A stretch of DNA of 64,000 bases from Tubulanus polymorphus (taxonomy: Eukaryota; Nemertea; Palaeonemertea; Tubulaniformes; Tubulanidae). Positions within the stretch are counted from its first letter, which is position 1. Each line of letters begins with the position of its first letter. This document shows, piece after piece, positions 4,948 to 57,900 of the stretch. A model generated the notes under the pieces. That model ran no database searches. It saw nothing but the letters and a program-made list of their open reading frames with translations, and was not told the DNA's origin. The stretch covers positions 25,512,001-25,576,000 of the forward strand of contig NC_134025.1 of assembly GCF_964204645.1 (NCBI RefSeq). Direction: 5' to 3'. The position numbers were made by a program, and so were the translations under genes.

Positions 4948-7755
4948 CTAGAATTACAAGATTACCACAATGATTGTTACGACCATGTTTACCACGTACA
5001 CATATCAATTCTGCAACCACCAGTTATGCCGATGCTTACTTTCTTTTTTCCTTCGCCCGTCGGGAGAATCAAAATCTTGTGCAAGGCCACTACTACTGCT
5101 ACTAGTACTGAGCGAACGCTCACTTCCGACTGTAGGGCTGTAAAATGTCCCTTGCTCTAGATTACGACCCCAACCTCTTGGAAATGTTTTGCTACCTGTT
5201 CAATAGAAAAATATGCAGAACTGAAACTAAACTATTCATACAATAGTCTGCAATGAGGTTAAAAAGTGCGAGTAGGTGGTTTCTCGCATTGCATATAAAG
5301 AAAATTCAATGATTATGGACGGACTAAAATCATCAAAAATATAAAGAGGTGTCATTACAGTATGCATTTTTTACAATATTCAACAACTATATAATATAGA
5401 ACATTGTTACATCAACAACTAACTACAGAACATAATTCGAATTAGGTGAACACATAAATGAATCAAATTAATAAACACAAGAAAACTACGCAATCCGATG
5501 ATATGATTAGAAATAAATTCAAATGAATAGATAAATCATGAGTGCAGATTGATACCTTCACGATCTTTAGTTGTAGTTGGACGAAGTCTGGTCGGATAAG
5601 TACCACCTTTACTGTATTCACGTTCTTGAGCTACAATTCAGAACATCAAACATGCGCTGCAACATTCTATAATAAGCTTTGTGGAGTAACTTGTGTGTAT
5701 CAATGACATTTATGATGAATTCACATTCAGAACAGAGTGTATCATGCGTTTCAGACATCATCGGTAAATTCACTTGTTGGATAGAAATCTACCGATGAAA
5801 CGTTTATCAAGTGTGAAAACTGTAAAAGGTGCATAACATCGAAGAACATCTTTCTGTCTTAATTCACACACAGAATTTTATGACTACATTATTGATACAC
5901 CGATGGCCTGGATTTTTCAAAGCACGAAAGTTCTCATTAATTCAGATAGTGACCTGAATCAGAAATATGAAGTTTTACGCAAATACCTTTCGGATCCTCA
6001 TACGCCGTATCTGATGTAGCACTTCGCCCTGAATTTTTACGTCTCATCGGATATGTATCACCTCTGAAAGAGAATATCAAGAAACGTATCGTCCCAGTCC
6101 CTGTTCAAGATCGATATTTGAATCGTTGAAGCAATTGAGAAATATAGAACGTTGTTGTCAGATTTCGGGACTTACAAATTGCTCACGTAGCTGCTATCGA
6201 GAGAATTTCTACTGCCAGATAGAGAACTATCGTTGGAATCAGCCAGAGGATGATCATTATGAGATCGAACCTGAAATATTGAATAGATACGTATTCGCAA
6301 TGAAAATGAGAAAATTGGTAAGAATTGGTAAGAAAGCAGTCAAGTCTTAACTATTAATAAGTTTGTAGGTCATATCTTTACAACAGAGAGGCCTGTGTCA
6401 TTTTTATGATTGGATTTGTTAAATGCAAAGATTGGGATAAGTTTGACTTACTGTTTCTGAATGTTCAGGAATGAATTCACCTTCGCTTGTTGTGAACGAA
6501 CTACTTGGGCACAAGTGCCCCTCTTCATGGGCGGGTATTGAGCCCGGAGGGGGAGAATAACGATCATGAGTCGTTCCGATTGACCTGCCTTCATACTGTA
6601 AAACAGCAATCAAATACATTCCATAATTTTCTAACCATTTAGCATAGAATGCATCATATGACCAGATTTACTACAGATTTGCAGCATCTTCAAGTGACTG
6701 TTCACCACCCTAGTTAAACTTATTTGAATATAAAGGAATTCTTTCTGTTTCTGTTGTCTTCTCCATCACACACACATACACATGAGCAGAATTTGATGCA
6801 CACTTGCATACATATTTTTTGGCTAGTACATGGAGCCTTTAAACACTGATTCATGTTAACCACAGTTTATACTATAGCATCAACGTTTAAACTTTGAAGA
6901 CATCAATAAACCACCTTTTGTGCAACTGGCCTACAATTTTTTGGGTCAACTTACCGTTGTACTGAAGAGTTCACCTAATTTTCCAGGAGGTGTGGGTGAA
7001 TTATTCGAGTTTACCTCATCACGACTCAAATGAATGCGCAAGCTTCTCTTGTGATCCCCCTTTTCCCACAAATTAACAGCCTGCTCTAATTCATGCTGGC
7101 CTTTTATAGGAATGTAACACTGAAAAATACAGTTAAAAATACAGAGAATGTTGATCATTTTATCTGCCGAAAGATTGATTTTGATAATCGATTTGTCTAT
7201 GGAACCTACCTCGCCATCAGATATGGTATAATGCATCCCTAGCGCAGATCCATAGTACTGCTTCACTTTACTCAATAACTCATCATATTTGACTGGCACA
7301 GGTACTTGTATGATTCTGTTTATAAATAGAAAATTTCACATTTTCATGGTTATTTCATATTTTCATGGTTCAAGTCAGTTCTGCGTTTAAAAATCACTAC
7401 ATTTTCATGTTATATCATACCTCCTTTCTTCCAAATATTCACATTTAATTCGCATTTCATTCTGAAACAGAAATAAATTCTGAACACATATTGTAACAAC
7501 GTGTCAAAATATATGATCAAAATGGAATGATCAAAACTTACGTGGATCCCATGACCAACTTCTTTATTTCTTCGATGACCCCCGGCTTGACGGAGACCTT
7601 TGGTTAGTCCATCCTTTATATCATTCCAAACTTCAATATCAGGAGGATCTAAGGTACAGAATTTGTCGATATATTCATAGTTATTTTCTTATTAACAGTA
7701 ATCAAGTTATTCAAGCTAGATGGTGAATTATGTACGAAATAATTTGCTTACCCAT
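3619..7755 (-). CDS. MAP3K2/3: MAP3K2/3 (MEKK2/MEKK3-type) kinase, complete, 15 coding exons
   Basis: A mitogen-activated protein kinase kinase kinase. In vertebrates MEKK2/3 phosphorylate MEK5, MKK4/7 and MKK3/6 in the cytoplasm and bind MEK5 through PB1. The joined exons give 1,785 nt, exactly 594 codons plus stop, close to the about 620 residues of vertebrate MEKK2/3. Order: short N-terminus, PB1 domain (about residues 38-118), Ser/Pro-rich linker with a conserved SEGEFIPE motif, kinase domain (about 330-590). The start ATG (7755-7753) is split from the second codon by an intron. The reading frame upstream is closed by a TAA 14 codons earlier with no other ATG between, so this start is well supported. 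Every intron is GT-AG and the frame is continuous. Invertebrates usually have one gene for both vertebrate paralogues, hence the double symbol. Transcription points away from dystrophin. Confidence 0.95.
5040..7755 (-). CDS. MAP3K2/3: MAP3K2/3 exons 1-10: PB1 domain and linker
   Basis: Exons in transcript order: 7755-7752 (only ATGG), 7648-7542, 7461-7421, 7315-7210, 7119-6955, 6595-6452, 6270-6176, 6063-5987, 5630-5556, 5195-5040. PB1 is recognised from [19 protein letters not shown] followed by MHYT and [16 protein letters not shown], as in vertebrate MEKK2/3. The linker contains YSPPPGSIP and SEGEFIPE, a GGTYP repeat seen twice (exons 8 and 9), and Ser-rich low complexity, then TPRAPVNW leading into the kinase. 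The linker is where 14-3-3 binding and phosphorylation occur in vertebrate homologues (family knowledge; not shown here). Confidence 0.92.
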
Positions 7756-18900: not shown

Positions 18901-21900
18901 TCTACATTATTTGTTCATTGCAGAAACATTTCTCTGAAGTGAAGGGAATGTTCAATAAGTTTCAACGTCCGGCCAACTTCGATCTGAAATTGAATTTTGT
19001 GCGAAGGACTCTCAACGATATCGAAGAACGCCTGCATTTCATAGATCTGATCGATACAGACCCTGAAAATGTTGAAACTCAACTACAACATTGCTTAGTA
19101 AGTCAATTTAGAAGTTTAGAGTTATTTCTGAAATATTTCATTTCGTCAAATCTGGCTCTAAATTATTTCATTAATTATTTCATTATTTTATTAAGTCATT
19201 ATACGTATTACAGACATTTTATCATTCGATGAGCGAACTGAAACCTGATGTTGAATACGTAATTAAAACTGGACGTCAAATCGTCGATAAACAGCAGGTA
19301 GACTTTCCAGAAAAACTCAACCAACAAATAGAAGCTATAAAACAACATTACAACAAACTCGGAATTCAGGTGGTTAATCTTTCTTATATTATCAGATGTG
19401 ATTAGATATTTTAGTTTGAATCTCTGATTGAGCTCGTTTATTCCTACAGGTCACTCAAGGAAAAGCTGATTTGGAAAACGCTGTCCAGCTATCCAAGTTC
19501 ATGCATGCAGATATCATAGTTATTAGCAACGTACTTAATCGTTGGGAGAAAGTTCTTCAACGGGAAGAAAAGTTAAGCATTGTTGAGGTAATAGATTAAT
19601 AAGGTTACCCTAGATAATTACTAGAATATTCGCTACATATTTCTCATTACTGCTATCATAAAACATTGTATGTATAAATAGTTACATAAGCAACAACAAG
19701 GAATCTTATTATCACACCCTGATCATTGGTTTTTGCTAGGATGCGGATAAGGATGTTGCTAAGCACCAGCCACATATCGAAAGTTTAAGCAGCACATTCA
19801 ATAAATTACAAGAGATGGCAGACGAGAGTGGTCTGGTCGAATCTCAGGAACAGGTCGGTGACATTAAACGTAGATGGGCTTCTTTAGTCAATTTAGTTCA
19901 GTCTAAGAAGACATCTTTACAGGTACGTAACACTACATTTCGGCCTTTTATTTCAACGAGAAAAATTATGGGGTATTGTATTATTTCAGTTCATTGAGGC
20001 TGTCATTACGTTGTTTATTATTTCGCTAGGGAAAAACTTCCGATGACGATGACTATAGCTTGGATAGTTTAGATATCGAAATGGAGAATTTCATGAAGGC
20101 TTCGTCATCGTTTAAACAAACTCTTCACATCACTTCAATTGAAGAAGAAAATCTTCCTTCTGAAGTCGTAAAGAACCAGACTGTAAGTTATTACCAAAGT
20201 TATATGATTATTTTCAAATACATTTATTCATCTTTATGTACAAAATGATGTAAGTATTCAACTTGATTCGTATTACAGCTATTAAATGAGGAAAAGGAAC
20301 GATTAGAAGGTGAAATGCAAAGGATTACTGAAAAAGTAAAGAAGGGACTACCGGAAAATAGCGAAGATATCGCTATCGATGGTTCAGATGAAAATATACA
20401 ACACAAGTTAGAAAAAGCTAAGGTAGGAATTGGTTTTATTGATAGGCCTATTCTGCGCTTCAGATTTATTCAGGTGGACATTTTCTGTAATATTTCACTC
20501 CGCAATATTTGTGCGTTTTACCAAATATGTGTTTCAGGATGTTTTTCGTTTTGCATTTTTTCGTTTTGCAAAGGCACGGTCTGTATTTAAAAAAAAATAT
20601 TGCAGCGGTTTTGTATAAATGACAATACCCTCTCGTAGACCATTTTGACACATCGTAGCAAGCATTTTTGGCGTGTTTCACAAATAGACGTTCGCAGTAG
20701 CAGAAATGATACGATGGAATTTCACTGCAAAGATACAAAAATCAAAATCAATGTTCAGTCCAGACCTGACTACGATGACTATTTGGGAGTAGTTTCTACT
20801 CTTTTAAAATTTTTAACCACTCAGATATATCAAAATACTCTCAAAATCAGAATAATTTAAAGTTCAATTACTGTTTTTGATGTCAAATCACTCTCAGTTT
20901 TGTGGTGAAAACTACAGTGATAGGAAATATCAGGTAGTTTGGCCAGACAGTCAAATTCACTTTATCCAGACCAGGTTAATAATGGTTTTGATCTAGTAGT
21001 AGTAGTATTAGTAGCAGATTTATAGGTAGTTAGAATACCATTTCTTTATGGATTTCTTTGAAAACTGAATGATTCGACTTACGTTCTATCGCAATGAACG
21101 CAGCGATCGTGTTGTAAACATGCCTCATCCAAAGCATCAGCCGGTTTCCTACAGCTCCTGAAATGACAACATTACAAGGCTGAGTTTACTTTATGGGAAT
21201 GGTTTGGTGCATAAAAGGAAGCAATGAATGTTAAACGACAGATCATTACCGACACGTTTCAATGGGGTCCGCGCAGGTACAACAACCATTTGCATTTTTA
21301 GGGTACAACCCCGTGTTGTACTGTCCGCACCAATTCTTATAATCTAATATTCCCAGTGCTGGTGTAATTGCTGAAAATTTTAACGAGATGGAAATCAGAA
21401 GTTCTTTGAAGTATTGGATTTCATGGACAGCTGTTAGTAATAATTATCTCGGCAGCTTCAACGTTCGCAACGTTTAAATTTAAACGTTTTAAGTTTGAAT
21501 AGTTATGGTAAACATTAGAGTATAGGCACACTGTTTTTGGAACAGAATTATCAACAGTATTAACGAATTGAAATTCTGAGCAGCCATAAATATGTTTTTA
21601 CTACGACAAACTTAAAACTGATTAGACTCAAAATAAAGACGTACCAACAAATTAGATAGCCGAATGATGATGTGAAAATGAGTGACTATAATGTAAGATA
21701 GACCATCAAAGTCTTAAAGCGAAAAACTTGTTTCTATTGAACGTCTTGAATTTACCTACCTGCACATAGTATTAGTATCCTCACAAGCATTTTACTGTTC
21801 GATGAATGAATGTTTACTACCTATGTACTCTGGGAGTTTTAACTGTTTTTGAGCAGCTGTATCTATATCGTTAAATGAATACCCAATAATAAAGCACTCA

Positions 21901-24900
21901 ACGGTTTTATTCCAGCCTTTGAAGGTCGCCAACCATGCTGGCTATACAATTATGTTCTTTTTCTATATTTCAGCAAACGATTAAAAATTAGATTCCCATC
22001 ATTTAGATAGAATACCCAGAGCTTTTGATTATCATACTTGCGAGTAGATTCAACTCATGTTCCGCTGTTTTAAAAGTTTTGGAATTGAGTTATTCATGTC
22101 TTGAGAATTTTTGAACAGGATGAGCGCTTGACATATTTTTATCTAAAATAAGCATCGGAATTGCATTTTTCCAATTAGCAATTCATTCAGTTTCTAAGAA
22201 AAAAGTACATCCTATTTAATTCCCCATAAAAACCCGAGCGATTATGAATGCTTCATTTGTCCATCTAAACAGAATTAGTATAGCTCAACGAATTCGTATA
22301 GAATTCATTAGTATTACGAAGAAAAACTATTCATCGCGAGGTGCCAAAGCGTGGTTATGCGAATAATTCCATCCTATCAGATCCTGAGTAACTCGATCAA
22401 AATATGAAGAAATGTACTGACTATTTATTTACGTTCCAAGAAGCTCATAATACAGCGACTTGTTATAATACTGATGAATACTTAAACTGTGCAATGTTTG
22501 TATATCGATAATTGCGTCTTATTGATCTTCTCTGCGGGTTGCTTTTTTAGCGGATAACGAAAAACGATAGGAAATGTTGTCTTTTTCTCTTGTGTAGCAC
22601 GAGTGGAATGAAACGAACGCCGACGCGGAGCACCATTCGGAACTTCTAAACTCGATCGTACTGATCTGGGAAACGTATGCGCAAGACGTGGAAGATCTTC
22701 AACAACGACTCGATTCCATTGAACAAACTTTACATTCGGATGATGACACCGATGGTTCCATTAAGGTAAGCAATTTCCATTGGATTTCATCCACCTGGTT
22801 TTCTTTTATTTGTTGCTCCACTATTTCTAGGTTTGATGTCTGAGTAAAGGTTTATTTAATACACATTTCATGTTATTGAATTGTGAATGTACTAAGGCAA
22901 TATATATGTAATTTGTAATGGCTCGAAATTTTTTTATATCCTATTAAAAGAACTACATTCTTGTCCAGGAATCGTTTATCGAAAACTCCATGAAGTTTTA
23001 ACTTAAAAACAATATGAATGTCTAATTGTAAAATATGAGTCTAGTAGTATCTGGGAGAGATCCAGTGAATATTGATCGATGATATCCAATTATTATTACA
23101 TAGACCAACGCCGTATTTTTTGGCTGTTCTCCGCAGAAAATGTAATTGATGATGAGATCAAATCTCATTAGGAGCGATTAGTGCTCTCTGTCGTAGAGAG
23201 TTTCTCATAATCTGCCTTATTATCGTTATCAATATTTCATGCACGTCTACTGATTTTTCCGTGTAAGCTTTTTTATGTTTCATCCGATAATTGTTTGGGG
23301 AAAATTTACGGCGAAATGGCTACGAATTGTGTCAGTAGTTGCACTGATAAAGCCTCTTTATGTAGATATTTATAGTTATGATTTTTATGGCAATTGAAAG
23401 TAAAGTTTTTGTTGCGTTTTTTAAGTTTGAGTTGAAGTGAGATGTGTATTCGTGTTGTGGGTATTTTTAGGATGTACTCGATGCCGTTGAAAATCATCAG
23501 ACCAGAATAGATAGCGTTAATAAGCAAGCATCGGAATTAGAGACTCGCGGCGTACGTCTAAAGACTTCACCCTCAAATTTAACTTATCTCAACGACCAGT
23601 GGAAACACATCCTCGATTACCTGAAATCATCAGAGGAGGAGTTCGCGCTACCACCAGTTGTCGATGCTTCGACACTGTCGGCGAAGTCTACTGATTACCA
23701 TCAGGCGGTACAGCCGACGCATGTTATCAATGACGAAGATGCCGAATCGGAGGGACATTCGTTAGAAACTGTAGTTTCTCGTAGTAGAAACGGTTCCGAA
23801 TCGACACCGGTTGTCGTGCTACGAGACACACTCACTGAATCATCGGATGAGATAGTCCTTGCTGAGGAGGAGACCAGCCATTCGGAATCAACGCCTACCG
23901 CCACGGAAAATATCGACGCAGTTTTGTCGCCGCTTTCCTCGGGCGAATTTTCCGATTTTGCCAGATTCGATAACAACGAAGATTTGGAAAACTTGATATC
24001 GCGCGTGAACTCGTTACGTTCGACGCTCGTGACTTCGCCGGAACTTTCTCGTGGAGATTACGACGCGTTTTCTGAACAAGACGATTGTTTAAAGGTAAGT
24101 TCTAAAATCTTCGTTTAAGTAGTTTTTGTGGTCGTATTTTCGAAGCGAAAGAAGACATTAATTCGACTTCGATAAAGTTTAAGATGTTCGTTCGTTATCT
24201 ACAGGCTGTCAAAGAGGAAATGGATGAAGTTGGGAATTCTGTGACTAGCGCCGAAAGTCGAGTCGACGAGCTGCTGAATAATGCTTCTGAGGAAGATAAG
24301 CAATCATTGAATAGCATCATGGTTAAACTGAGGAATGAGTGGACAAACTTGTGTCATGAATACGATAACAGACAAAGGTAAGCAGCTGATATATTTGGCT
24401 ATAAAACCATTCCATTTGGCTATAAAACCATTGATAATCATCAGCTTTCTCGATATAGACCTATTTGTTTGTTCATCTTGAATTTCTGTGGATTTTATTT
24501 CATTTATCATTTCATGGTTTGAACAGCTTTTTACGGTCTGATAACTACCTATGATGGAAAAAGTGAATACATTTTGAATGAATTTCATCGAAATAAGAAT
24601 TGTAAACGTGAATATTCTTCCCTATTTATTTTCATAGTCAGCTGACGAAAGCGCTCGAACAGTGGCAACATTACCACTGCGATATGAATGATATGAATTC
24701 CTGGTTAAACGAAGCCCAAAATACACTTTCATTGAGCAGACGTGAAGATGGTTCGTTGTGTCTCGACATTGCTCAGAACTACCAAAAGGTACATAACGGG
24801 TCATGATGTACGAACATGTTCATCAAAGAAATAATTAAAGATTTGATGCATTTCTATTGTCATTATGTGTAACAGGACCTCGAAGAAGGTGTCAGTATCC

Positions 24901-51900: not shown

Positions 51901-54900
51901 CATATCTACGCAACCCTCTAGGCTGTAATGTATTGACTGTAAATGAGCTGTGTTTGATTGATCGAGTCATTTCGCAATCTCATTACACGACTAGTTCTTC
52001 TTGAGGACTTTGTATTGGTTTAATTATTTCTTGATTTGTGCTGTTTTTGATTCTCATGTCGTCGTATGATGCCATCAATCCTCGTAATACGATCTAGTTG
52101 ACATTTCGGTTACTTAACTGTAACCAAATAACCTTTAGTTTATTCAAGAAGAATTCCAATATTGTTTCGCATTTACCTTCACGTTTGAATATTGTAGAAT
52201 CAGAAATGGCTCCCATCGAACTAACGCCGGAACAAGAAGCGCGACATATCATTCGAAAAATCCGACATCACGTCCGTTTGTTAAACAGAAAATGGGCAGA
52301 AGTGCATCAGAAATCAAATGAATGGCAAGCTAGAATTGATAGAAATATTCAGGTTTGTAAACTAAGTAAAGTACATGTATCTGCATGTCTTTTTTGTTAA
52401 AATTTGTAGCTTGATATAAAATATTGATCAAGTTCAATCACTTAATGGATTAAACTCTTGACATTTTCATCTCCGCGTTGAATATGGATTTTTTCGCATT
52501 CCTCATTCACCAGCAATTTGGTATGCTCGAAGATGCTCTTGAACATCTCAGCGTTGATGTCACATCTGCCGAAAAAGACCGAAATAAGTGGAAACCAGTT
52601 GGTGAAATAGTGATACAAAATCTACACGACGAAATTAAACGAACAAAGGTAAATTTTTTCGAGCAGTGTGAATGAATCCAATGACCCCTAGCGCTGATAA
52701 GAATTGTGCTTGTGTTTTGATTCATGAAATCAATTGCCGTGTCTTAACAAAATGATTGTTCAGATTACTTTGGCCATCTCAAAATTCCATAAGATGGTTG
52801 ATTATTTCGATACAAATGAGATATGTTTATCCAAGGTAAAACTGCTGCGTCGAACAACTTAAGATGCTTTACACATTTACAATGAAGTCATTTCATTGAG
52901 ACCAGCTATAACAGAGAATTCTTTCCAACACTCAACACTTCAGTATGTTTCTATATTGCAGAGCTTCCAACAAAAATTTGTTCCTTTGCAAACGCAGGTT
53001 GACCATGTCAATAATCTAGCCAACGAATTCCAAAATAACCATATAGTATTATCGCATATAAATGTGAATAAACTAGAAGATCTGAACAGTAGGTAAGTAG
53101 TTAAGCCGCCTGCACAATCTATTTTCATTCCATTCGTATGAACTTGACCAAAATAATCCTCCATCTGTTGTACTTTCTTCTAGGTGGCGAACTCTTACAG
53201 TAGATATAGACAATAGATTAAAAGAATTGAATAATGCCTTGAAAGATTTTGGACCAGAATCTCAGCATTTGTTATCAGGTTAGTTCGTCTCGATTGACTT
53301 CTGCTCATTTCGACTCGACAAAGTTCAAATAGTCTTAGCCCATTAATGAATAAGTCATTAGGAAGTGTAATAAGGTAATCTGAGATGTCAATGATTGGAT
53401 GTAGTCTTCTTCGGTTTCAGCATCTGTTGATCATCCTTGGGAAAGAGCCATTGCGGGGAACAAAGTGCCTTATTACATCAAGTAAGCCTCCAAATTAGTG
53501 CCATCGAAAATGTAATTGAAACTCTCATGAATAAATAGTTCCTCCCTTTTGTCTGAGGGTTTCTGACACCGTTATTCGTCAGGTGGTTTCAAGTTTTTGA
53601 TCTGCCTTGATATTTTGTATTTTTGGAATAAGAAATTAAATCTGTGACTATTTCTAGACATTATGTTAATGTTACTTGTTATCGAAGTACATGTATAGTC
53701 TTAGTGTATTCATATTGATTGTCAAATTTGTTGAATCAATGTGGCTTTAAGATACAATTAAGTATAATGTAACCATTTATGTCTATGAATATTTTTAAGC
53801 TACTGCCGCGAAAATGTCATATTTTGGTACAGTTCTCTCACACAAGAGGGCAGCATGTCTTTATCAGAATCGATATTCTAATGATATGTATGCTCTTTTA
53901 CAGTCATACTACAGAAACTACTCATTGGGATCATCCATTATTTACTGAGTTAATGAGTGCCATTTGTAAGTAGAATTTAGAAGCCATCAAAAGTAGCACG
54001 AACGAATTCGAGTTGTTGTATCAAAGCCATTATGAACATCGCATAATAGTGAATCATTTTTTCAATTTTGAATTTTCCAGCTGAGTTAAATGGTGTGAGA
54101 TTTTCTGCTTATCGAACTGCCATGAAACTCAGGACTTTACAGAAAAAAATCTGCTGTGAGTTGTCGTAATCAGTCACCGCTCCCTGTTAATTTAATCGGG
54201 TCATGTTTATGATGTATGACTTTGTATATAATTGCAGTACACTTGGTTGGCATGAATGTGGCAATAGATAGTTTCCAATCTCACGGACTTCGTGCCCAGA
54301 ATGATAAACTTATGGACATTATCGAGATGATGAATTGCTGTGTAACGATGTTCGAAAAAATCGGTCCCGAACATCCAGACTTGATAAACATACCTTTATG
54401 TACTGATTTGGTGCTAAATTGGCTACTCAATGTATATGACACGTAAGTTATGTTACGTCAGTTCTTAAGATACCTAGTGAATCACAAGTCAAACCATTCC
54501 AACTAGATATTCTTAGTTATTTTCAAACTTATTAAAATGTTCAATTAATTCGATTTAAACAAAAAATTCTGTAAATCCAACCGCTGATCACACAACTATA
54601 TCTGTATTTTGATTTCTGATTTCAAATTCAAACCCACTGTTTTGCTCCCGGCTGGTGTGGTGGGTTTGTAATGGACACCAAATCAATACAAATCAAACCA
54701 AATCTACCAATCAAACCAAATCTACCGATCAAATGAATAACAGGGACAATCCCTATTTCAAGATCAAAAATAGATGAATTGATGTAGATGTATTAAATTT
54801 TCAGTGTACGTACTGGTCGAATAAGAGTATTATCTTTTAAAGTCGGAATCATTCTTTTATGTAAAGCGCATTTAGAGGATAAGTTTAGATGTAAGTATAT

Positions 54901-57900
54901 CGATGTATTACGCCAGTTCGTAGTCGCTGTGCTCGGCATCAAACAACAAGTATATCAATCCTTTTTCAATTCAGTTATATTTCGACTAATTGCTGATGCT
55001 AATGGATTTGTGGATCAGAGACGATTAGCTCTGTTATTACATGATTGTATACAAATCCCGCGACAACTCGGAGAAATAGCTGCATTCGGAGGCAGTAACA
55101 TCGAACCGAGTGTACGGAGCTGTTTTGAGAAGGTATCCGTATTGTTTCTAACTTTTTGAGGAAAGAACAATTACTATCTAATGCTGTACTATTTAATATA
55201 TGTGAAATCAACTGGCTGATTTCAGGCACATGCCCGTGGACGAACTGATATTCAAGCGTCTGATTTCTTGGATTGGTTGAAAATGGAACCGCAGTCGATG
55301 GTCTGGTTACCAGTGTTACATAGAATGGCTGCTGCTGAAACTGCTAAACATCAGTCAAAGTGCAATATTTGTAAAACCTGTCCAATCATCGGTATGAGGT
55401 AAGTAAGATTTAGCCTCGAGTTGTGTATGTGTATCCGTGTAGACTTAAATAGATTTTATCAATCTCATCTTTGTTAATTATATAGGTATCGATGCCTCAA
55501 ATGTTTCAACTTTGACATGTGCCAGAACTGCTTCTTTACTGGCTGCAAGGCCAAAGGCCATAAACTAACGCATCCTATGCAAGAATATTGCACAACGGTA
55601 AGTTACTTCTACACGATAGTCAACAGAAGATTATTTATTTCACTTGCCACAATTGCTGGTGCTGCCATCTTTCAGTAACATTCAACGATAAAACAATTGA
55701 TGTTCGGACTTTGCCAATGATCAGTTCTTTCTATATACATGTATTGCAAATCTTGATTTTGAAATTCATCTTTTCTTTTTAGACGACATCTGGGGAAGAC
55801 ATGCGAGATTTCACCAAGGTGATGAAGAACAAATTTAAGTCGAAACGTTATTTCAAGAAACATCCTAGGTTGGGATACCTTCCTGTTCAGACAGTGCTTG
55901 AAGGAGATGCTATTGAAAGGTAAGGAAGACAAATGAGCATTATTTTCCCATTTCTGCAGACGATTTCGGTCGATGAAGTTTGAAAACTCGCATTGATAAG
56001 CAATTTTGTCGTGAGGAAACTTATTTCAGCGCGGTATGAAAATTGATGTTGATTAAGTTCAGTTGCCACCAACGCTGACAAATGATTCTTATGCAAACTA
56101 ATGGTGGCTTTCATACATTCATCTAGCAACACATTTTATTGCTAATGTAATTTATAGTTGATGCATATAGAATGTATTGATCATATTGATGATGTAGTGC
56201 ATTATTATCTGTCATACCGGGGTGTATTATTTGAGTGTTTTGAGTGGAAATAAAGCGAGTGATTTATTCTTCACGCACTGCTTATAAGTTATGGCATTTC
56301 AGTGTAAATAGCCCTCCAGGGACGATTTCATAACGACGTTATAGGCTCGAGAATTGGGCGAATATTTTAACGAGCATTCAGAATATCGTTATATGAACGA
56401 ACGACGATGATGATTTATTGAATTGAAAACTACTTCATTCTTGTAGCTGCATGAAGACTTTTTCCATAATACTTGCTCGTAAGAAATCGCGATTCTGTTG
56501 ATTTTGGATTTGATAGAACCCGTTGAATCTCCTTGCTTGATTATCTCTCTTCATGTTCTCAGATCGTATTGAAAGAAGCTAGTTTATTAAAATGCGGACG
56601 GTGCAACCGTAATTGTATTTCTAAAACCGGTAGATTGAAAGATTCGAAAGATTTGTATTCAATGATGCATTCTCAAGGGAGTGTTTGACGTTGGGTATTA
56701 TTTTCTTGCCGCTTAACTTCATTAATTTATTCCCAGACAATGTTTATTAAATGCACAGTATTAGACTCTAGAGCATTTTCAACCAATTCAAAGGCTTTCT
56801 GTAAAGAGACTAGCGACTTAAACATTCATGAATGTATTGAAGTGAATTTTCAACATTTAATTGATTTGGATCATGCAGCTAGACTATTTTTGGGTAGCTA
56901 GTGTGAGTAATCCGACGTGGATAAAGCTAGACGAATTTTCTGAACAGAGTATAATGTATCTGCCGTATAGCTGAAATGGATGAGTATTGATTAGTCACCA
57001 TGGATGATACTGCAATGGAGGAGGCTGCGTACTCGGTCGCCTGTCTCTAAGGTGTTATAGTTTGTCATATTCGCGTCTGGCCACACTCGACTGAAAACAT
57101 CGCGACGCAGACGTACCGGGAGCGAGCGTGCAGTCTGCCCTGCTTTGTTGTCTAAAACAATCTGCAACGATGGTAATGGGTGGTGTATTGTGTAATACAA
57201 ACAATAACGATGAGGAAGTTAAACCTGATAATAATGTTGAAAATTCACCTCATGTCGTTCTTATTTTGTCTGATAGGTAAGTCTTTCAGCCTTCTACGTA
57301 GGTTATTTTTTGTTGTTGTCGAGGGAATTACTCAGTAGTTTTAAGAAGCTATTTACCACGGCTTTTTCCGAAGCGAAGATGATTTATTTAAAGGTGTATC
57401 GGTATAGTCATTTCTGGTATCGATTTTCTATCAACCGCTTAGTTAGACATTTGAGAAAACACACTAATCGTGCTCTGTTAGCTAAACAAACTGATAAATT
57501 CATTAATTACGCTCTTTGGTCGTAGTAAAATCATTTAAAAAGAAGTCATATTTGAACAGTTAATGGCTGGTCGGTGGGTGTGTCAACTTACACAACCTCA
57601 TATTTCTATTTGATGTTGCCTTTTGTATGGAATAGTATTGGCCTCGGGTTCAAAATTGAAATGGAATTCATATCGAGCTGGCGTGCGTAACAAAATGACA
57701 TCATCAGAGAGCTAATTTCGGATAAAAAACTGAGCCTTGAAATTTGATCGAAATGTCACTTCGTGGAAGCAGCAAAAATTGTACGAAACACTGCAATATT
57801 TCAGGTTGAATGATTAATCTTGTTGAAAGCTACTTAGCTTAAATTGATTATCACATTCAATGCAGTGACCCAGCGAATCATTTGACCATTGACATTGCTT

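Follow-up and report, generated by a model that had tools for sequence, protein, structure and literature searches.

Within a 64,000-nucleotide stretch of the Tubulanus polymorphus genome (the window, whose positions are used below wherever no contig or locus is named), a single intron of a dystrophin gene contains, on the opposite strand, what is probably a functional protein-coding gene, whose product would be secreted, basic and disulphide-rich and would share a common origin with the secreted phospholipase A2 (PLA2) superfamily. The nested gene looks real and conserved, and its position looks like one more case of the common nesting of genes within introns. Nesting alone changes little, given that nested structures hold 4.3-8.7% of protein-coding genes in seven vertebrates (PMC8467205). 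What the locus adds is a well-formed antisense nested gene carrying introns of its own, together with a PLA2-like family that lies beyond the reach of the Pfam models.

Structure of the nested gene

On the minus strand of positions 20466-21790, four exons of 31, 121, 75 and 259 nt (the last counted to the stop), all with GT-AG borders, join into a protein of 161 amino acids, and the exons, borders, phases and 161-codon frame are all as a preliminary description of this DNA had given them. Splicing is predicted throughout, exon 1 of this gene and of its paralogs having been placed by reading splice sites; the first intron is in phase 1, as it is likewise modelled in three paralogs. The features of the gene are as follows.

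21760..21790, minus strand: exon 1, start codon and most of the predicted signal peptide; 31 nt, phase-1 end, donor AG/GTAGGT
21250..21370, minus strand: exon 2, end of the signal peptide, calcium-loop-like WCGQYNTG and Cys-rich insert; tblastn matches at paralog loci
21083..21157, minus strand: exon 3, catalytic-helix-like segment; 75 nt, a length identical in three paralogs
20466..20724, minus strand: exon 4, HFCYCERLF segment, Cys-rich C-terminal part and TAA stop; tblastn matches at paralog loci
20465..20470, minus strand: AATAAA overlapping the stop codon, as read from the sequence
20435..20440, minus strand: AATAAA 25 nt past the stop, then a T/GT-rich stretch antisense to the dystrophin exon

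The protein has 19 cysteines, 18 of which lie past residue 17, in agreement with the 18 mature cysteines counted earlier, and the 144 residues after residue 17 have a pI of about 9.1. Group I/II secreted PLA2s are about 120-125 amino acids long, so a mature protein of ~144 amino acids is not, as had been supposed, shorter than the common secreted PLA2s. The AATAAA noted previously 25 nt after the stop is indeed present, at 20440-20435, and is accompanied by the further one that overlaps the stop codon. Cleavage usually takes place 10-30 nt beyond AATAAA; use of the downstream signal would put the cleavage site at roughly 20425-20405, on the dystrophin donor (20423) or slightly beyond it, and the transcript would be wholly intronic only if the upstream signal were used. 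A repeat scan of the intron holding the gene found short, weak repeats only.

The dystrophin host and the nesting

The host gene runs through spectrin repeats, several of them matched below the Pfam cut-off, to exons for EF-hand_2, EF-hand_3 and ZZ, and the PDB protein that its EF-hand exon matches (2.9e-32) is dystrophin; on the strength of this domain order and of the PDB match we identify it as dystrophin. The relevant parts of the host are listed here.

20423..22597, plus strand: dystrophin intron holding the nested gene; 2,175 bp, phase 0, GT-AG, open frames on both sides
20279..20422, plus strand: dystrophin exon left of the intron; 48 codons, the surrounding open frame being without a Pfam match
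22598..22765, plus strand: right-hand dystrophin exon, spectrin-like, of 56 codons; its weak match of spectrin type (E 0.0019) falls short of the Pfam cut-off
54213..55675, plus strand: dystrophin EF-hand and ZZ exons; Pfam EF-hand_2 2.6e-15, EF-hand_3 1.3e-16 and 4.1e-11, ZZ 6.8e-09

Ahead of the EF hands, an open frame at 53773-53970 is WW-like by eye and has no Pfam match at E up to 0.01. A human query, used without a positive control, found no N-terminal pair of CH domains in the window's initial 20 kb or in the 90 kb upstream; the genome has 31 CH matches, none of them near C1:25.5 Mb, and in the two of three plus frames that were scanned no CH (actin-binding) domain precedes the earliest spectrin frame, which lies near 13.3 kb. 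Either the CH exons lie farther away or were missed, or they are absent from this dystrophin. Upstream of the first spectrin frame, a minus-strand frame at 6946-7335 has a weak PB1-like match (E 0.0068).

All coding exons of the PLA2-like gene fall within the one dystrophin intron, so that the gene model and the Pfam and PDB matches of the host bear out that it is nested antisense in a cytoskeletal gene, in an intron of 2,175 bp. Simple nested pairs on opposite strands are common (74.3% of such pairs in human and 77.8% in mouse; PMC8467205), and the nesting in dystrophin is therefore not exceptional in kind. The same study puts the proportion of nested genes in human and mouse at about half that of Drosophila, and states that internal genes often arise through duplication and are typically intronless (PMC8467205). 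The present gene resembles the opposite-strand pairs of animals described there in being short and in lying within an intron of a long, oppositely oriented host, and differs from them in having three introns. It also resembles the lrrtm genes in alpha-catenin introns, which are protein-coding and lie on the opposite strand in an intron of a cytoskeletal host; according to PMC3933685 that nesting occurs in most jawed vertebrates, whereas the nesting of the PLA2-like gene is known here from one genome. A search of the open-licence literature, judged by title, turned up nothing about a PLA2 gene nested in a dystrophin intron, and among its papers on dystrophin and nested genes none was on PLA2 by title.

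Relatives in the same genome

When the protein of the nested gene was searched in six frames against the genome it comes from (77 contigs, 267.8 Mb in total), 12 exon-level matches fell at five loci: the nested gene itself, C1:12.15 Mb, C9:11.08 Mb and two adjacent loci at C2:27.22 Mb, which gives four further loci of the family spread over three contigs. With the C9 paralog as query there were 15 matches, at the same five loci and at C2:3.88 Mb, the last of which (E 0.3) was left out of the locus count. Full models at C2, C1:12.15 Mb and C9 (exon 1 of the C9 gene being chosen out of three candidates) encode 153, 154 and 171 amino acids, share intron positions and phases with the nested gene and have an exon 3 of exactly 75 nt. 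That four other loci encode relatives, three of them with the same intron phases, argues that the nested gene is more than a chance open frame. The intact C2 copy has a decayed-looking neighbour immediately upstream (L010:3330-3860). In viral contigs, 71 pattern matches were obtained for relatives of the family, none of which was confirmed.

Residues invariant in all four members include W24, C25, G26, N29, G31, P56, D58, L60, D61, C64, H67, D68, C70, C84, C86 and E87. The nested gene differs from the three paralogs with dN of 0.52, 0.56 and 0.53, and neither NG86 nor YN00 yielded a dS against any of them; the differences at codon positions 1, 2 and 3 number 60/51/103 over 150 codons, 63/56/92 over 144 and 63/50/92 over 143, a pattern that shows the mark of purifying selection on the encoded proteins. 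At the DNA level, four matches with E below 0.01 link the intron region to paralog loci; all are in exons 2 and 3, three of them in exon 3, and they overhang into introns by at most 7 bases. A fifth match (E 0.05) joins exon 3 to the decayed C2 copy, and a further four, of only 14-23 bases and with E of 0.18-0.63, fall in non-exonic sequence. Taken with the substitutions, these matches look like those of an old duplicate under selection.

In the 9 kb around each of the two intact paralogs at C1:12.15 Mb and C2, no nesting is visible. The C1:12.15 Mb copy converges on a last exon that by eye resembles a sugar transporter (its matches being below the Pfam cut-off) and is located downstream of it; the C2 copies are located upstream of an exon of a neurotransmitter symporter and point away from it. 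Nesting as a habit of the family is thus unsupported within the 9 kb per locus, the copies standing beside other genes and not visibly inside them. Near the C1:12.15 Mb paralog is also a 754-amino-acid open frame (L009:6623-8884) with similarity to reverse transcriptase at E 3.5e-05, below the Pfam cut-off; it is probably a retroelement of the Penelope type.

Relation to secreted phospholipases A2

The protein of the nested gene has no match in Pfam, NCBIfam or the PDB at E up to 10, and a profile of the four family sequences has none in the PDB. A Pfam search of all four members returned one weak match to Phospholip_A2_4 (E 0.035) and one to a tRNA synthetase family (E 0.64). Conversely, searches of the genome at E up to 0.001 gave 24 exon matches for PF00068 and 5 matches elsewhere for PF05826, none of either at the nested gene or its paralogs; the absence of any Pfam-A match extends to group XII PLA2 (PF06951), provided that this family is in the library used. 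The mature family alignment was then compared by hhalign with spliced sequences of three PLA2s from this genome, drawn from 4 of a set of 12 PLA2 loci and including one sequence joined across the exons of two loci. The comparison gave a probability of 86.2, an E of 4.9e-6 (for a single comparison) and a score of 38.57 over 29 columns, and none of 500 column shuffles reached that score, the best scoring 23.25.

The match covers the calcium loop and the catalytic His-Asp helix only, helix 3 lying outside it. It pairs DYKNWCGxxNTG with the YGNYCG calcium-loop stretch of the PLA2s, and a 16-residue helix segment of the family with the PLA2 stretch DQIDRCCKVHDDCY; loop and helix are separated in the family by a Cys-rich insert that spans 24 columns of the profile and, in the nested gene, 23 residues. 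Within the loop, WCGxxN(T/S)G is aligned to YCGKGGSG, the place of Gly32 being taken by Tyr, Lys, Ser and Ser in the four members (Gly32, like His48, Asp49, Tyr52 and Asp99, being named by the residue numbers of PLA2). The CxxHDxC motif, with its His-Asp pair, is present in 4/4 members as C64, H67, D68 and C70. His67 and Asp68 stand at the places of His48 and Asp49, Val71 at that of Tyr52 and Glu87 at the probable place of Asp99; this place was assigned by eye, from the likeness of the CxCERL segment to CxCD of helix 3, and reads CxCE in 4/4 members. The active-site pattern of PLA2, of the PROSITE type, has CC before the histidine; the family has AC in 4/4 members.

The preliminary description had proposed a PLA2-like protein and a check against PF05826 and PF00068. 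That check gave no match at E up to 10, and membership of either family is unsupported; the PLA2 likeness itself is borne out in part, over the calcium loop and the catalytic helix, where the profile match argues for relationship. Like the group I/II/X enzymes of PF00068, the family is disulphide-rich, with a signal-peptide-like start and a [YW]CG loop and, after it, a DxxDxxCxxHDxC helix. Unlike them, it has the Cys-rich insert, Ala for the first Cys of the CC pair, Val for Tyr52 and Glu for Asp99, and it has no counterpart to the DxxD/CxxHD break seen by eye in the PLA2 genes of the same genome. Its likeness to Phospholip_A2_4 (PF08398) consists of the weak match in one of the four members, the other three, including the nested gene, being without one. 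The parvovirus VP1-type PLA2 is a viral capsid domain, neither cysteine-rich nor secreted, whereas the present family is cysteine-rich and probably secreted.

Interpretation and alternatives

That the protein is an unrelated cysteine-rich secreted protein, its PLA2 likeness convergent or accidental, would agree with the lack of any family match at E up to 10 and with the missing DxxD/CCxxHD break, but we consider it improbable, since the column shuffles that failed to reach the hhalign score kept the cysteine content, and calcium loop and helix motif align in the same order. Far less probable is a decaying or silent copy stranded in the intron, for which the decayed-looking neighbour of the C2 copy offers a precedent: the open frame, the GT-AG splice sites and the retention of every family-invariant residue speak against a pseudogene, and the third-position excess over the paralogs, together with those kept residues, led us to judge it unlikely.

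A more serious possibility, and one branch of the explanation that we favour, is that the protein is a catalytically dead PLA2-like secreted protein serving as a ligand, inhibitor or antimicrobial scaffold; we give this somewhat less than an even chance. Glu at the probable Asp99 place, Val for Tyr52, the varied residues at the Gly32 place and the basic mature protein all suit it. Selection for binding only, however, would not require that the equivalents of His48 and Asp49 be invariant in 4/4 members, and the Glu could still hold the histidine.

In the explanation we favour, a functional gene of common origin with the secreted PLA2s, transcription would start from a promoter of the gene's own within the 807 intronic bp that precede the ATG and the product would be secreted. 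It would then either hydrolyse phospholipids through His67-Asp68, with Glu87 replacing Asp99, or have been converted to a binding protein, outcomes that we hold about equally probable; if active, it would test the tolerance of the PLA2 active site for Glu in place of Asp99 and for a large insert beside the calcium loop. As to origin, the three introns point to duplication at the DNA level, and a retrocopy is ruled out by introns at the same places as in the paralogs; most likely a duplicate with its introns landed in the dystrophin intron, or the other copies left from there. It is improbable, slightly more so than an unrelated protein, that the whole of a further picture holds: a PLA2-like family that escapes today's Pfam models and has a Cys-rich insert behind the calcium loop and Glu for Asp99, of which one member sits antisense in a dystrophin intron with its poly(A) signals beside a splice donor, so that 3' end formation could influence the splicing of that exon.

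Other phospholipase-type genes in the genome

Exons matching PF00068 on contigs C4 and C8 indicate many ordinary PLA2s, and several of the C8 copies are nearly identical, which suggests a recent expansion of secreted PLA2s. Contig C14 (38,687-240,851, loci L028-L034) has at least 47 matches to Phospholip_A2_4, these being 47 of the 48 listed. They lie in an open frame of 362 amino acids (309 and 294 in two copies) that by eye resembles a parvovirus-type capsid protein, and the copies are mostly 3,406-3,407 bp apart, although two of those listed are separated by some 49 kb; the array may be a tandem endogenous viral element or an assembled concatemer.
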